From assembly GCA_947503285.1 (NCBI GenBank), contig CANNDD010000004.1, positions 62,001-126,000 of the forward strand: a stretch of DNA of 64,000 nt. The letters run 5' to 3'. Source of the DNA: an uncultured Croceitalea sp. (GTDB taxonomy: Bacteria; Bacteroidota; Bacteroidia; Flavobacteriales; Flavobacteriaceae). The position numbers and the translations under genes are program-made. The notes under the pieces were generated by a model. The model was not told the origin of the DNA and did no database searches. It worked only from the letters and a program-made list of their open reading frames with translations. Positions 38,117-42,975 of this stretch are shown in pieces. Within the stretch, counting starts at the first letter, position 1, and the number at the start of each line of letters is the position of its first letter.

Positions 38117-38890
38117 CTAAACAGCCTCCTTTTTCTCACTAAGATACTTCCAATACCGTTTTGGCACGTGTTGCGTATGTAATTTTCTATTGATCCGTGA
38201 TTTAATATTGGTGCTTTTAAAATAGTTGTTCCAAAGTTCTTGATAGTCGTATTCCCCTTCGGTAAACGTTTGGCTTTTTCGCGAACGGTTAAAGTGGATT
38301 TCAGATAAATTCAATGAGATCAGCTCAACACGTTCCAAATTATAAAAAATCCCATATTTCCGTTTTACATCGTAGATCAACCACTGCTGGTCTGTATAAC
38401 GATTACGAAAATGCTTTGAAATTAAGGGCAACACGTCAAAATCAGGTTCTATATTGGCAAAATAGATGTCGTCTTTGGTCAATTGAAAGCGTACGAAAGC
38501 CTCCATACGATGTTTTTCGCGACCTACTTTTCGAGCCATTTGTGAAATATACAGCATGGTTTCATCAGAGAAATCAGATTGCTTCCCCTTATGGGCCATC
38601 AATTTTTTGATATATTCAAACAACATCATTTCAATACCTTCGGCTTCACTTAAAAAGGCAAAATAAATATTGGTAATGGCATTGTAACTTTTATTTCGAA
38701 CCCCATTCCAGACCCTTTTCGCCTTTTCAACATGGGTAAAGATGGTCTCATTTTCAGAGAATAGCCCATTCTGGGTTTGCCCGTTCTTTTGGATGTCCAT
38801 CACTTTTAGCTTTTCTTCAAAGGCTATGAATACTGCTGTGAGAAAGCCATTAAAGCTGCCATCGTAAATTAATGTTGTTGCATTTTTCAT
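38117..38890 (-). CDS. TIGR03915 family putative DNA repair protein
   Basis: 257 residues of the family described as a putative DNA metabolism/repair partner of a radical SAM protein. The hallmark start TLIYDGSFNGFLTAVFIAFEEK is present, along with RKVGREKHRMEAFVRFQLTKDD, YFANIEPDFDVLPLISKHF and a uracil-DNA-glycosylase-adjacent type C-terminus (HVPKRYWKYLSEK). No enzyme activity has been proved for this family. It is the last gene of a three-gene minus-strand set with the small ORF and the radical SAM gene, downstream of four palindromic operators. Confidence 0.85.
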   Translation of the reverse strand: MKNATTLIYDGSFNGFLTAVFIAFEEKLKVMDIQKNGQTQNGLFSENETIFTHVEKAKRVWNGVRNKSYNAITNIYFAFLSEAEGIEMMLFEYIKKLMAHKGKQSDFSDETMLYISQMARKVGREKHRMEAFVRFQLTKDDIYFANIEPDFDVLPLISKHFRNRYTDQQWLIYDVKRKYGIFYNLERVELISLNLSEIHFNRSRKSQTFTEGEYDYQELWNNYFKSTNIKSRINRKLHTQHVPKRYWKYLSEKKEAV

Positions 38891-38948
38891 ACTGCTTAAT
38901 TTTAATATGCTGTCATTTTTCTATGTAAAAGAAAACCAGGCTATTATC

Positions 38949-39116
38949 TTAGTCGAGAACTCCTTCAAAATGACACACATTATTTTTGATCATACTTTTT
39001 AATTGTACCAAAGACTTCTTAGTTCTACTTCTAAAACGGACGCAATCATACCCAAAATCTAAAATGGTCTTACGTTTACGCTCTAGATAACTTTGTTCTT
39101 GTGACGCTCTTTCCAT
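38949..39116 (-). CDS. small ORF, 55 residues, in DNA-repair operon
   Basis: ATG 39116 to TAA 38949-38951 encodes a basic 55-residue peptide beginning MERASQEQSYLERKRKTILD and containing DCVRFRSRTKKSLVQLK. The ATG lies two bases after the stop of the radical SAM gene, and the ORF fills most of what would otherwise be a 228-base gap in a compact operon. Its 10 Lys/Arg in the first 35 residues hint at nucleic-acid binding. No family was recognised, and coding is inferred from position and frame only. Confidence 0.5.
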   Translation of the reverse strand: MERASQEQSYLERKRKTILDFGYDCVRFRSRTKKSLVQLKSMIKNNVCHFEGVLD

Positions 39117-39118
39117 AA

Positions 39119-40381
39119 TTAGTTAAATAATGATAATTGTTGATGGTATTGATTTTTATACTTGCTTGTCGATGATTGTAAAATCATGCCTTTAATTTTA
39201 TTTGCATCCAAATCACGACTTTCCCAATTTCGCGAATCACATACCATGAAATATTTTGCACGGTTAAGGGCAACCCCGATTTTCTTTAGGTGCTCCCAAT
39301 TCAATTTTCGAAACTTACGTGCCTTTAAGATCCTTGTCACCGATTGTATTCCCAAACCAGGCACCCTTGCCAACATTCGCTTATCCGCCTTATTGATATC
39401 TATTGGAAAATAGTGCATGTTTCGCAAGGCCCATGAAAGTTTTGGGTCTACATCGATATCCAGATTCGGATGGTCATCATTGACAATTTCATTCACGGCA
39501 AATCCATAAAAGCGCAATAACCAATCGGTTTGGTACAAGCGATTTTCCCTGAGCATGGGCACTTGCGAACCAATGGAGGGCAAACGGCTATCTTCGGTTA
39601 CAGGCACATAGCCTGAATAATACACCCGTTTCATTTGATACTTTTTGTAATAGTACGTAGCCGAATACATGATGTCTTTATCACTTTCGCCCGTTGCCCC
39701 GATGATCATTTGGGTACTTTGCCCAGCTGGGGCATATTTGGGTGTACTTTTTATGAGTTTACGTTCATTTTTATAGCGTATCAACTCATTTTTTACTTTC
39801 AACATCGGCTTGGTAAAGTCTTCATGCTTTTTGTCTGGGGCCAATAATTGAAGACCGGATATGGTGGGGACTTCTATGTTGATCGACAAACGATCGGCAT
39901 ACAATCCGGCCTCATACATTAATTCATCACTACAGCCCGGAATGGATTTTAAGTGGATATATCCGTTGAACCGTTCTTCTTCACGTAGTTTTTTAGCTAC
40001 CGCAATCAGGCGTTCCATAGTATAATCAGGGCTTTTAAAGATTCCCGAACTCAAAAAAAGACCTTCAATATAATTGCGACGATAGAAATTAATGGTCAAG
40101 TCAACCACTTCCTGGATCTTAAAAGCCGCCCGTTTTACATCATTACTCTTACGTGTAACACAATAGGCGCAGTCAAAAATGCAATGATTGGTCATCAAGA
40201 CCTTTAATAACGAGACGCAACGGCCATCTTCAGTATAGCTATGGCAAATACCCATTCGAGAGGCGTTACCCAAACCCTTATTTTGGTTTTTACGGTCACT
40301 GCCACTACTGGCGCAGGAAACATCATACTTGGCAGCGTCAGCGAGAATATTGAGTTTTTCTTTTACACGTTCGAAATCCAT
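39119..40381 (-). CDS. putative DNA modification/repair radical SAM protein (TIGR03916)
   Basis: 420 residues. The [4Fe-4S]-SAM motif CIFDCAYC lies in NHCIFDCAYCVTRKSN, with VDLTINFYRRNYIEGLFLSSG and MIIGATGESDKDIM as in this SplB-like family. The C-terminus carries a helix-hairpin-helix DNA-binding segment (MLARVPGLGIQSVTRILKA). ATG 40381 (MDFERVKEKLNILADAAKYD) is preferred. The frame continues to a TTG at 40399, but that stretch is an operator (40385-40399). Paired with TIGR03915 in many bacteria, the two are thought to repair or modify DNA; the substrate is unknown. The operators place it under the S24 repressor. Confidence 0.9.
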   Translation of the reverse strand: MDFERVKEKLNILADAAKYDVSCASSGSDRKNQNKGLGNASRMGICHSYTEDGRCVSLLKVLMTNHCIFDCAYCVTRKSNDVKRAAFKIQEVVDLTINFYRRNYIEGLFLSSGIFKSPDYTMERLIAVAKKLREEERFNGYIHLKSIPGCSDELMYEAGLYADRLSINIEVPTISGLQLLAPDKKHEDFTKPMLKVKNELIRYKNERKLIKSTPKYAPAGQSTQMIIGATGESDKDIMYSATYYYKKYQMKRVYYSGYVPVTEDSRLPSIGSQVPMLRENRLYQTDWLLRFYGFAVNEIVNDDHPNLDIDVDPKLSWALRNMHYFPIDINKADKRMLARVPGLGIQSVTRILKARKFRKLNWEHLKKIGVALNRAKYFMVCDSRNWESRDLDANKIKGMILQSSTSKYKNQYHQQLSLFN

Positions 40382-40384
40382 ATT

Positions 40385-40463
40385 TTGGAAATAATCCAAT
40401 CAAAAATATGGAAATAATCCAAATAATGGAATTATTCCATAAATTATTTTGGAAATAATCCAA
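40385..40463. promoter_or_regulatory. array of four palindromic operators (TGGAAATAATCCA type)
   Basis: Four sites: TTGGAAATAATCCAA at 40385-40399; TGGAAATAATCCA at 40409-40421; the perfect palindrome TGGAATTATTCCA at 40427-40439; and TTGGAAATAATCCAA at 40449-40463. Centres are 23, 18 and 23 bases apart. They fill the divergent space between the radical SAM gene and the 40494 gene. The dyad form and the nearby LexA-like S24 regulator point to an SOS-type control region. Site 4 overlaps the -33 box of the rightward promoter, and site 1 lies just upstream of the leftward start codon. Binding itself is inferred. Confidence 0.8.
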
Positions 40464-40477
40464 ATTACCTATATTTG
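40448..40477 (+). promoter_or_regulatory. rightward promoter of the S24 regulator operon
   Basis: TTTG (40448-40451), an 18-base spacer and TATATTTG (40470-40477) fit the Bacteroidetes promoter consensus. Operator 4 covers the -33 box and part of the spacer, so a bound repressor would block this promoter and thereby its own synthesis. A leftward -7 box TATTTTTG (minus strand, 40401-40408) lies between operators 1 and 2, without a clear -33 partner. Confidence 0.6.
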
Positions 40478-40493
40478 AAACAGTTTACTTTAT

Positions 40494-41048
40494 ATGTCTA
40501 GTAATTTTTTTATAGGGATGTGGCTTAGTATTCTAATCTTTATTCTAGTCTCACTTTCTATCTGGGGTGTTTTCTACATTGAGAGTATAGATTCGAAAAT
40601 TGCCATATTTGGTATTGTAGCAGTAATTGTTGCTGCTTTTACTTCCGTTATGACTGTAAATATTAATAATAAGAAGGTCCGTGAAAGGGAATATGAACTT
40701 CATATATTAAAGGAAAAACAAAAGGTTTGTGAGCATTTTTATAATTCATTTTTCGAGATTTTCAAGAATATTAAGAACAACAGGAATGGGCTTTCCAAGA
40801 CAGCTATTGATGAAATGGCACTTTTTAAAAAGGGTTTAATGAATTGGGGAAGTGAAGAATTAATTAAAAAGTTTATCGATTATGAGAACTATAATGCTAT
40901 CCATGAAAAAAACTCCAAAGTATTTCTGAATAATGCTAATGTATTTCTCAAGGAAATGAGAAAAGAACTTGGTTTTAAAGATTCTAGAGATTTAAGTCTA
41001 ATGACTGTTTTATTGACTGCTGATGCAAGAATAGAACTTGGTCAGTAA
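40494..41048 (+). CDS. hypothetical membrane protein in S24 regulator operon
   Basis: 184 residues. Two N-terminal membrane helices (FFIGMWLSILIFILVSLSIWG and IAIFGIVAVIVAAFTSVMTV, about 5-54) are followed by a basic coiled segment (NNKKVREREYELHILKEKQK) and a helical cytoplasmic domain with NWGSEELIKKFIDYE. The coding sequence is noticeably richer in A and T than its neighbours, which may mean recent acquisition. No family was recognised. It lies between the operator array and the repressor gene, and thus probably shares the repressor's promoter. Confidence 0.7.
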   Translation: MSSNFFIGMWLSILIFILVSLSIWGVFYIESIDSKIAIFGIVAVIVAAFTSVMTVNINNKKVREREYELHILKEKQKVCEHFYNSFFEIFKNIKNNRNGLSKTAIDEMALFKKGLMNWGSEELIKKFIDYENYNAIHEKNSKVFLNNANVFLKEMRKELGFKDSRDLSLMTVLLTADARIELGQ

Positions 41049-41058
41049 AAATAACTGG

Positions 41059-41078
41059 ATTCCCGCCTTCGCGGGAAT
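41059..41078. repeat. palindromic repeat ATTCCC-N8-GGGAAT
   Basis: ATTCCCGC and GCGGGAAT form a perfect eight-base stem with loop CTTC, followed by GAC. The form ATTCCC-N8-GGGAAT equals the neisserial dRS3 repeat pattern and resembles small REP-type palindromes in many genomes. It sits between the membrane-protein gene and the repressor gene and could act as a weak attenuator or as an integration hot spot. Both roles are speculative. Confidence 0.75.
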
Positions 41079-41097
41079 GACAAAAAGATTTTGATAT

Positions 41098-41853
41098 ATG
41101 GAAAATGAATTGACCTTAAAGCGTTTTATAGAAATTCGAAGGGATTTGGGTTACACCCAAGTAGAGTTTGCCAAACTTCTTGGTATTTCGAATACCACTG
41201 CCGATATTGAACGAGGTCGCACGAAACTTTCGGGTAAGGTCGTTGCGGAGTTACTTCGTCAGTTTAAGATCAATCCAATCTGGTTGTTTGGTGAGAACGC
41301 TTCTAAATATCTCGAAACATCCCATACGAGCGTAATTCCGAAAGTGGTTACGGTCGACAGTTCAGACCAAGACAATATGGTATTGGTCAATGCTAAGGCC
41401 GCCGCTGGATACCCACAAAATATAGCAGACACCAGTTGGTATCAACAATTGCCGGCATTTGATATGCCCATACCAGAATTTAGAAATGCCACCTATCGTG
41501 GTTTTCAAGTAGAAGGTGATAGTATGTTACCCAATCTCCACCCGGGTGAATGGGTACTCGCAAGGGCCATAGAGCACATTGACCATGTAAGTGCAAATAA
41601 AATGTATGTTGTCGTCTTACAAGATTCCATAATGGTCAAGAAGATTGAAAAAAGACCCAATTCCAATAACATTACCCTGGTCTCGTTAAATGAGACCTAT
41701 CCCCCGTACGATATCAAACCTTTTCAGATTCAAGAAATATGGGAAGTGAGCAGTAAATTGACCTTTAATGTCGATGCCACTTCGGATCGAGGGTTGTTAC
41801 GACAACTGCAAGAGTCTATGGAAGAGCTAAAAAGACAAGTAGGGCAACGTTAG
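41098..41853 (+). CDS. LexA-like XRE/S24 transcriptional regulator
   Basis: 251 residues. The N-terminal helix-turn-helix of XRE type (ITEIRRDLG-like IEIRRDLGYTQVEFAKLLGISN, split here as residues 12-21 and 22-33) is followed by a linker and a LexA/CI-type self-cleaving domain. The cleavage dipeptide Ala103-Gly104 lies in KAAAGYPQ, the Ser in EGDSMLPN (S142) and the Lys in MVKKIE (K181). It is expected to dimerise on the palindromic operators at 40385-40463 and to autocleave when RecA filaments form. It is separate from canonical LexA, which has a winged-helix instead of XRE. Regulation of the radical SAM operon is inferred. Confidence 0.88.
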   Translation: MENELTLKRFIEIRRDLGYTQVEFAKLLGISNTTADIERGRTKLSGKVVAELLRQFKINPIWLFGENASKYLETSHTSVIPKVVTVDSSDQDNMVLVNAKAAAGYPQNIADTSWYQQLPAFDMPIPEFRNATYRGFQVEGDSMLPNLHPGEWVLARAIEHIDHVSANKMYVVVLQDSIMVKKIEKRPNSNNITLVSLNETYPPYDIKPFQIQEIWEVSSKLTFNVDATSDRGLLRQLQESMEELKRQVGQR

Positions 41854-41901: not shown

Positions 41902-42975
41902 ATGAAACGACGTTATTTCGTTTTACTGTTTTTCTTAATTTTTCATGTCTTATCCGCCCAAGAAACCAAAGACACCCTAATCGTAGGGTATACCCCGGCG
42001 GCACCTTTTATTATTCAAGAAAATGAATTTTTAGAGGGTATTAATGTATGGCTTTGGAAAAGGGTTGCCGAAGATTTGGACCTGGATTATAAAATGGTTC
42101 AAATGGATTTTGCGAATATGTTGGATTCTTTGAAACTTGGGGCAATCGATGTCTCTATCAATCCCCTGACCATTACAGGGGAACGCAGTAAAACAATGGA
42201 GTTCACGCATTCTTTTTATGCCTCACATTCAACAATAGCAATCGCTGAGAAATCGTCTTTTCAAAAAGTAAAACAGTTTTTGGGCTCTTTTTTCCACATT
42301 AATTTTTTGAGGGGCTTTTTACTTTTGTTGGTGTTGCTGTTATTTTTTGGCAGTCTTGCGTGGCTCACGGAAAGAAAGGGAAATCCTGAGGAATTCAGAC
42401 CTGGATTAAAAGGGATTTGGGATGGTCTTTGGTGGTCGATAGTGACGCTAACGACTGTTGGCTATGGTGATAAGGCCCCTAAAACCCGTTCTGGTAAGGT
42501 GATAGCGTTCGGACTCATGCTCAGTGGGTTATTGTTCGTTTCGGGTTTAACGGCAAGTATTGCATCAAGTTTGACCGTGAACCAATTGGAGAGCAGCTCA
42601 GACGATGTGAATTCCTTCAAAAAAAAGCGGGTTGGTACGGTCAAAAGTTCGGAAGCCGACGCTTTTTTGAAAAGTCATTTCTTCAGGGATGTATCTTTGT
42701 ATAAAGGACTTGTGCCTGGTCTTCGAGATTTAAGTAAGCATAAAATTGACGCTTTCATCTATGATGAACCCATTTTACAATACCGTATTCGAAAAGATCC
42801 TTCATTACGTCAAGTGGAGCTTTTGCCCATGAAGTTTGACGTGCAATTTTATGCCTTCGGAATTAAAAAAGATTCCATGCTCTTAGAACAGGTTATCTCA
42901 CAACGTATTCTTGAAATTATGGAAACACAGGAATGGGGGATCGTACTGTCGGAATATGGTTTAACGGAATTATAG
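41902..42975 (+). CDS. GluR0-like ligand-gated channel with TVGYG filter
   Basis: 357 residues. After a signal peptide (MKRRYFVLLFFLIFHVLSAQ), a periplasmic binding lobe (about 25-120, IVGYTPAAPFI) is interrupted by a channel: helix 1 (134-154), pore loop WWSIVTLTTVGYGD (177-190), helix 2 (199-221). The second lobe resumes (KKKRVGTVKSSEADAFL). This is the prokaryotic ionotropic glutamate receptor arrangement, and TTVGYGD is the potassium selectivity filter, as in cyanobacterial GluR0. SGLTASIASSLTVNQL after helix 2 resembles the gate region. It should conduct potassium on binding an amino acid; ligand unknown. Confidence 0.9.
   Translation: MKRRYFVLLFFLIFHVLSAQETKDTLIVGYTPAAPFIIQENEFLEGINVWLWKRVAEDLDLDYKMVQMDFANMLDSLKLGAIDVSINPLTITGERSKTMEFTHSFYASHSTIAIAEKSSFQKVKQFLGSFFHINFLRGFLLLLVLLLFFGSLAWLTERKGNPEEFRPGLKGIWDGLWWSIVTLTTVGYGDKAPKTRSGKVIAFGLMLSGLLFVSGLTASIASSLTVNQLESSSDDVNSFKKKRVGTVKSSEADAFLKSHFFRDVSLYKGLVPGLRDLSKHKIDAFIYDEPILQYRIRKDPSLRQVELLPMKFDVQFYAFGIKKDSMLLEQVISQRILEIMETQEWGIVLSEYGLTEL

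Follow-up and report, generated by a model that had tools for sequence, protein, structure and literature searches.

A probable SOS control locus with a four-box operator between an S24 repressor and a TIGR03915/TIGR03916 operon in an uncultured Croceitalea sp.

The window analysed here is a 64-kb stretch of DNA from an uncultured Croceitalea sp., and the locus in question lies at 38117-41853, where a radical SAM (rSAM) gene of family TIGR03916, a small open reading frame (ORF) and a TIGR03915 gene share a divergent region with the gene of an S24 repressor. With a probability of about 0.92, we read it as an SOS control locus in a marine flavobacterium resembling Flagellimonas, in which the S24 protein acts as a non-canonical LexA of the GGA-N5-TCC type and silences both divergent units. 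The SOS system itself is already known, and the locus is a further member of it. The new details are a conserved operator spacing, CTAA-N5-TTAG boxes before the same operon elsewhere and, tentatively, a DHH-like fold of the TIGR03915 protein. Boxes, promoter overlap, catalytic residues, other boxed genes and conservation were observed directly in the sequences studied here; repressor binding and induction by mitomycin C are carried over by analogy from a relative, Salegentibacter agarivorans, as described in PMC8565304.

Operator boxes and the S24 regulator

As the preliminary description had stated, four near-identical palindromes lie in the divergent gap, whose 112 bases run from the rSAM ATG at 40381 (minus strand) to the next plus-strand ATG at 40494. 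All four are GGA-N5-TCC palindromes upstream of the TIGR03916 gene, without strand: box 1 (TGGAAATAATCCA, 40386-40398), box 2 (TGGAAATAATCCA, 40409-40421), box 3 (TGGAATTATTCCA, 40427-40439) and box 4 (TGGAAATAATCCA, 40450-40462), with spacings of 23, 18 and 23 bases. Box 1 stands 4 bases upstream of the rSAM ATG. Box 4 overlaps the TTG of a promoter-like TTG-N18-TATATTTG on the plus strand (40449-40477; TTG at 40449, TATATTTG at 40470), which we take to be the Bacteroidota promoter consensus and which reads towards the S24 gene. Both placements, one palindrome just before the rSAM start and another on a -33 box, had been recognised earlier and were found again. A possible -7 element for the rSAM operon, TATTTTTG, lies on the minus strand at 40401-40408.

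The window holds eight GGA-N5-TCC sites, four of them in the gap. In 200 windows simulated with a first-order Markov model, the mean was 14.1 sites, and never did more than two fall within 112 bases. The longer pattern TGGA-N5-TCCA was observed four times in the window; simulated windows had 1.36 on average and 5 at most. What is unusual is therefore the clustering of the boxes and not their number, because four stand in the gap against at most two in simulation, and site totals are not high. Across the genome, TGGA-W5-TCCA was found nine times, four of them in this gap, and the reversed control pattern four times.

The shorter pattern GGA-W5-TCC gave 55 sites in the genome against 81 for its reversed control, and 51 of the 55 were located and examined (four were not located). 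Thirty-nine of the 51 lay inside mechanical ORFs of at least 100 amino acids (aa), a count that takes in the window's box 1, which falls inside such an ORF only through an upstream TTG, and five single sites lay outside such ORFs. Sites at most 60 bases apart occurred, among the 51, at three places only: this gap, a DinB-DnaE locus and the gene of a PA0069-family rSAM protein. At the DinB-DnaE locus, a box pair 19 bases apart precedes the gene of a Y-family polymerase (DinB), followed by a DnaE gene; the pair before the PA0069-family gene (478.7 bits, cut-off 360) is likewise 19 bases apart. No GGA-W5-TCC was found in the 4.5-kb locus of a second DinB gene. The preliminary description had reasoned that palindromes scattered through unrelated coding regions would speak against its reading. 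Single sites are indeed scattered in this way, but close pairs are not, and dispersed noise was rejected as an account of the boxes.

The S24 repressor gene (41098-41853, plus strand) encodes a protein with an HTH_3 domain, and both PF00717 (50.0 bits) and PF01381 (32.7 bits) scored over cut-off. The protein keeps Ala103-Gly104, Ser142 and Lys181, exactly as previously read from its translation, and no other protein of the genome matched PF00717 at E 0.001. Canonical LexA was ruled out, since the genome had no match to LexA_DNA_bind (winged helix-turn-helix, PF01726) at E 0.001.

For comparison with published systems, we take COG4277 to be TIGR03916 and the PA0069 family to be COG1533. Bacteroidetes S24 repressors, termed non-canonical LexA, are described as binding GGA-N5-TCC or CTAA-N5-TTAG, and the S. 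agarivorans protein bound GGA-N5-TCC in gel shifts (PMC8565304). In the same organism, the repressor gene and the tested predicted targets, except recA, were induced by mitomycin C, and cleavage of the repressor was deduced from its residues. The predicted regulon includes dinB, often accompanied by a DNA polymerase III alpha gene, as well as SplB (COG1533) and a COG1573-COG4277 operon, and several promoters have two or more boxes (PMC8565304). The present genome shares with this system the operator motif, a repressor with HTH_3 and S24 domains and the Ala-Gly, Ser and Lys residues. It also shares boxes before a dinB-type gene with DNA polymerase III alpha, before an SplB-type rSAM gene and before a COG4277-type operon, as well as the lack of a canonical LexA and a recA that is unboxed here and uninduced in S. 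agarivorans. Unlike in that system, the S24 gene stands here beside the rSAM operon, with one four-box array and an inserted 184-aa ORF, and a separate UmuD-like S24 protein was not found, the genome having one PF00717 match. The idea of an SOS-like, self-regulated repair locus, put forward from the letters alone, appears supported by the motif, which is a tested S24 SOS operator (PMC8565304), by the sole PF00717 protein, by the lack of LexA_DNA_bind and by the boxed DinB-DnaE and PA0069-family rSAM genes.

In a tree of S24 proteins, for which the program warned of long branches and in which the reference WP_075324850.1 was not among the rows, the window protein fell within a 32-row clade (100/99) together with GGA-boxed proteins. 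The smallest starred set contained nine rows, all labelled G. Within the clade, row L171 came out as C and row L168 as none, although GGA boxes lie near both; they were mislabelled because their ORFs were called too long. Elsewhere in the tree, the weakly boxed row L244 (one GGA box) was assigned none manually. The cleavage residues are kept in 30 of 30 G-labelled rows. One may ask whether the S24 protein responds instead to another stress, for example an oxidative one, with the repair genes as downstream targets, and S24/XRE regulators are generally known to vary in signal. We regard this as very unlikely in view of those 30 rows and of the mitomycin C induction and motif binding reported for a protein of this kind from S. 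agarivorans (PMC8565304).

Under the proposed SOS control, a dimer of the S24 protein would bind the four palindromes and, once bound, would silence the rSAM gene, the small ORF and the TIGR03915 gene on one side and the 184-aa ORF with the S24 gene on the other, the latter as putative autoregulation through the inserted ORF. In response to RecA filaments after DNA damage, Ser142/Lys181 would cut the repressor at Ala103-Gly104, and expression of both units would be turned on along with that of DinB-DnaE and the PA0069-family rSAM protein. The rSAM/TIGR03915 pair would then repair or process damaged DNA. The locus would add another example to the SOS circuit recently described in Bacteroidetes, and the boxed promoter regions detected in this genome form a compact set of three.

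Conservation of the arrangement and of operator spacing

TIGR03916 was found in 33 of 149 genomes of the family, the own genome included. Two sets of relatives were compared, namely all 32 family relatives carrying TIGR03916 and 80 named loci, the best of 583 found. The divergent arrangement of S24 gene, boxes and rSAM gene is present in 18 of the 32. All 18 carry two or more boxes no further than 400 bases from the rSAM start, as do 2 of the 14 relatives without a divergent S24 gene (Fisher p 4e-7, a value that ignores kinship). In the larger set, a divergent S24 gene was found at 24 of the 80 loci, and at 22 of them boxes lie no more than 300 bases from the rSAM start. A check of these 18 and 24 loci for duplicates gave no near-identical ones, and only two pairs share at least 1.5 kb at 95% identity or more, both at about 96%.

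Together the two groups make 42 relatives with the arrangement, or 43 loci with the window. Counted from the S24 side, the spacing is 22-23 and then 18-20 bases in 32 of the 43, one of which has an extra site 36 bases off ahead. Two boxes 40-42 bases apart, as if the middle box had been lost, were seen at six loci, and a single spacing of 19, 22 or 23 at five. A promoter overlaps the S24-side box at 28 of the 43 loci, window included. This spacing suggests cooperative binding of the repressor, and its conservation makes such cooperativity directly testable. No description of the operator geometry or of the inserted 184-aa ORF was found in the parts of the literature covered. At two loci the ATG of the S24 gene comes only 4 (L140) or 6 (L144) bases after the -7 element, so that the S24 mRNA would be nearly leaderless.

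The same operon is met elsewhere with other boxes. In other Bacteroidota, a CTAA-N5-TTAG box lies no more than 63 bases upstream of the called rSAM start at 24 of the 80 loci, and one or two GGA boxes without an adjacent S24 gene were found at four. These CTAA-boxed loci resemble the second SOS system of PMC8565304 in having the rSAM-TIGR03915 operon with an upstream box, and differ from the present locus in the box itself, in having no S24 gene beside the operon and in a separate S24 clade. The presence of two unrelated operator types before the TIGR03915/TIGR03916 pair in different Bacteroidota lineages speaks for the pair taking part in the damage response. Among 20 genomes chosen from the 56 of the 80-locus set without an adjacent S24 gene, 17 had an S24 match, 28 matches in total. 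All seven matches with 51-72% identity carry two or three GGA boxes, and all six S24 genes of the Sphingobacteriaceae-type clade carry CTAA-N5-TTAG boxes; the remaining 15 have one CTAA box, one single GGA box and, in 13 cases, none.

The locus also recalls the right operator (OR) of phage lambda, where a regulator with a CI-type N-terminal domain acts on several operators over divergent promoters; unlike OR, it has an SOS regulator, fixed GGA-N5-TCC dyads and a chromosomal regulon. A prophage CI-type repressor left by a lysogenic remnant, with the boxes as phage operators, would agree with PHROGs matches to phage repressors (best E 7.8e-24) and with the phage origin proposed for the whole repressor family (PMC8565304). 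We find this account barely credible: the arrangement is kept across genera such as Flagellimonas, Zobellia, Maribacter, Cellulophaga and Aequorivita, further boxes stand at the DinB-DnaE and rSAM_PA0069 genes, and the two flanking genes that were scanned encode a methyltransferase and a channel-like protein. As a separate observation, a metagenome-assembled genome labelled Saccharospirillaceae (Pseudomonadota; L163) has a flavobacterial S24-box-rSAM locus that is nested among Flavobacteriaceae in the tree, and it is probably mis-binned.

The inserted ORF and points against the proposed SOS control

A 184-aa ORF (40494-41048, plus strand) with a hydrophobic N-terminus, as judged by eye, lies between the promoter and the S24 gene. 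The direct divergent neighbour of the rSAM gene is therefore this ORF and not the S24 gene; the earlier placement of the repressor opposite the repair operon had passed over the ORF that separates promoter and S24 gene. The ORF had no Pfam or NCBIfam match at E 0.01. It is given no function here, since its PADLOC match (RTasSLATT, E 0.0028) and its PHROGs matches (best E 0.0064, to a protein of unknown function) are weak. Close homologues were found in two of 298 other family genomes (L220 and L221, of two other genera), with 75% and 65% identity, and weak matches in four more genomes (E 6e-10 to 5e-4). The 13-kb surroundings of the two close homologues gave no rSAM, TIGR03915 or S24 match. 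The ORF seems to have been inserted without disturbing the boxed promoter. Behind it, at 41060-41081, lies a hairpin, TTCCCGCCTTCGCGGGAATGAC, which occurs at nine places in the genome with 0-2 mismatches and not at all as the reversed control; it is a candidate REP-like repeat or terminator.

Several results weigh against the SOS reading set out above. The 184-aa ORF may disconnect the S24 gene from the promoter at the operator, and the hairpin lies between the two as well. On the rSAM side, a -33 TTG was looked for 16-22 bases upstream of TATTTTTG and not found. Contrary to what the preliminary description had expected, the 3.8-kb locus of recA, a single-copy gene, contains no box. Two Aquimarina loci (L154, L155) have their boxes close to the S24 gene, more than 300 bases from the rSAM start. 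Lastly, 28 of the 80 loci lack both kinds of box ahead of the rSAM gene, so that SOS control of this operon is not universal.

The first of these points can be taken further. Control by the boxes may extend to the rSAM operon and the 184-aa ORF alone, with the S24 gene expressed separately and autoregulation lost in this strain, because the inserted ORF and the hairpin cut the gene off from the operator promoter. That both elements lie between promoter and S24 gene, the hairpin being one of the nine copies, and that phmmer gave no match to the 184-aa ORF around the locus in the 42 relatives that share the arrangement, would fit such a loss. Yet the four boxes sit at an intact promoter that reads towards both genes, which are 49 bases apart, and inspection of 41040-41097 by eye gave no TAnnTTTG element from which the S24 gene might be read on its own. 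We hold separate expression to be rather unlikely, and prefer repression of both units by the S24 protein.

The rSAM protein, the small ORF and TIGR03915

The identities given earlier to the two repair proteins hold, both scoring well over their NCBIfam cut-offs. The TIGR03916 protein (39119-40381, minus strand; 420 aa from the ATG at 40381) scored 675.5 bits against a cut-off of 343.5, with PF04055 over cut-off and a C-terminal helix-hairpin-helix (PF12836) just below. Its cluster motif CX3CX2C (C67, C71, C74) is invariant in 40 of 40 sequences. C23, C46 and C55 are likewise invariant in all 40, and a second metal cluster is possible. A structure model had a mean pLDDT of 65.9 and was poor around the cluster motif; its fold matches were generic radical SAM proteins and were set aside because of the poor model.

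Between the rSAM and TIGR03915 genes lies a 55-aa small ORF (38949-39116, minus strand). Related short ORFs were found by phmmer in L060 (E 5e-12) and L144 (E 1e-15), with weaker matches in L140, L145, L149 and L150 (E 3e-07 to 4e-05), and the aligned relatives have the common core LE-R-IL-LGY-F-S-K-L. Other relatives with a similar gap gave no phmmer match.

The last gene of the operon encodes the 257-aa TIGR03915 (DUF4130) protein (38117-38890, minus strand; 266.2 bits, cut-off 112.25; PF13566), and a TIGR03915 gene follows the rSAM gene in 31 of the 32 family relatives, the exception being L040. PMC3765255 describes DUF4130 as an enzyme with a predicted link to mutagenesis, in association with SplB-like rSAM proteins and uracil-DNA glycosylases (UDGs). 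The present genes agree with the known DUF4130/COG4277 pair in being over cut-off, adjacent and on the same strand, and depart from it in the 55-aa ORF between them and in the TIGR03915 protein, which had no UDG family match in Pfam and NCBIfam scans. No experimental study of the pair was found in the literature, by title or abstract start.

An AlphaFold2 model of the TIGR03915 protein had a mean pLDDT of 83. Its best Foldseek match in the PDB was a PAP phosphatase, which we take to be a DHH-type enzyme (E 7.6e-4; similarity low, TM 0.40, rmsd 7.4), and a DHH-domain protein, Cdc45 and RecJ came next, all with E above 0.001. In hhalign, the TIGR03915 profile gave probabilities of 1.5-3.4% (local modes) against 14 NrnA-type proteins, 0.2-0.4% against unrelated controls and 0.1% against 16 RecJ-type proteins. 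A Pfam scan of 76 TIGR03915 members matched 41 families, and DHH was absent from the 25 of these that were shown. The predicted fold is thus tentatively DHH-like, and profile comparison adds no significant support. The N-terminal YDG[ST]-x-x-G motif recalls the PDGD-x-x-G of NrnA-type proteins, a resemblance that sequence profiles do not confirm.

From regulation and domains, the most likely role of the rSAM/TIGR03915 pair is lesion processing, with TIGR03915 as DNA-handling partner. A more specific picture is speculative, and we doubt that it holds as a whole: a multi-operator switch of fixed geometry (22/23, then 18-20 bases) might keep an rSAM lesion-processing enzyme under the tightest SOS repression, TIGR03915 might belong to the DHH family as a catalytically degenerate relative of RecJ, NrnA or Cdc45 and present damaged DNA to this enzyme, and in this strain a membrane-protein gene might have been captured into the repressor's own operon and now be SOS-inducible.

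Beyond the S24 gene, at 41902-42975, an SBP_bac_3 domain spans an Ion_trans_2 channel domain, as in a prokaryotic ligand-gated ion channel.

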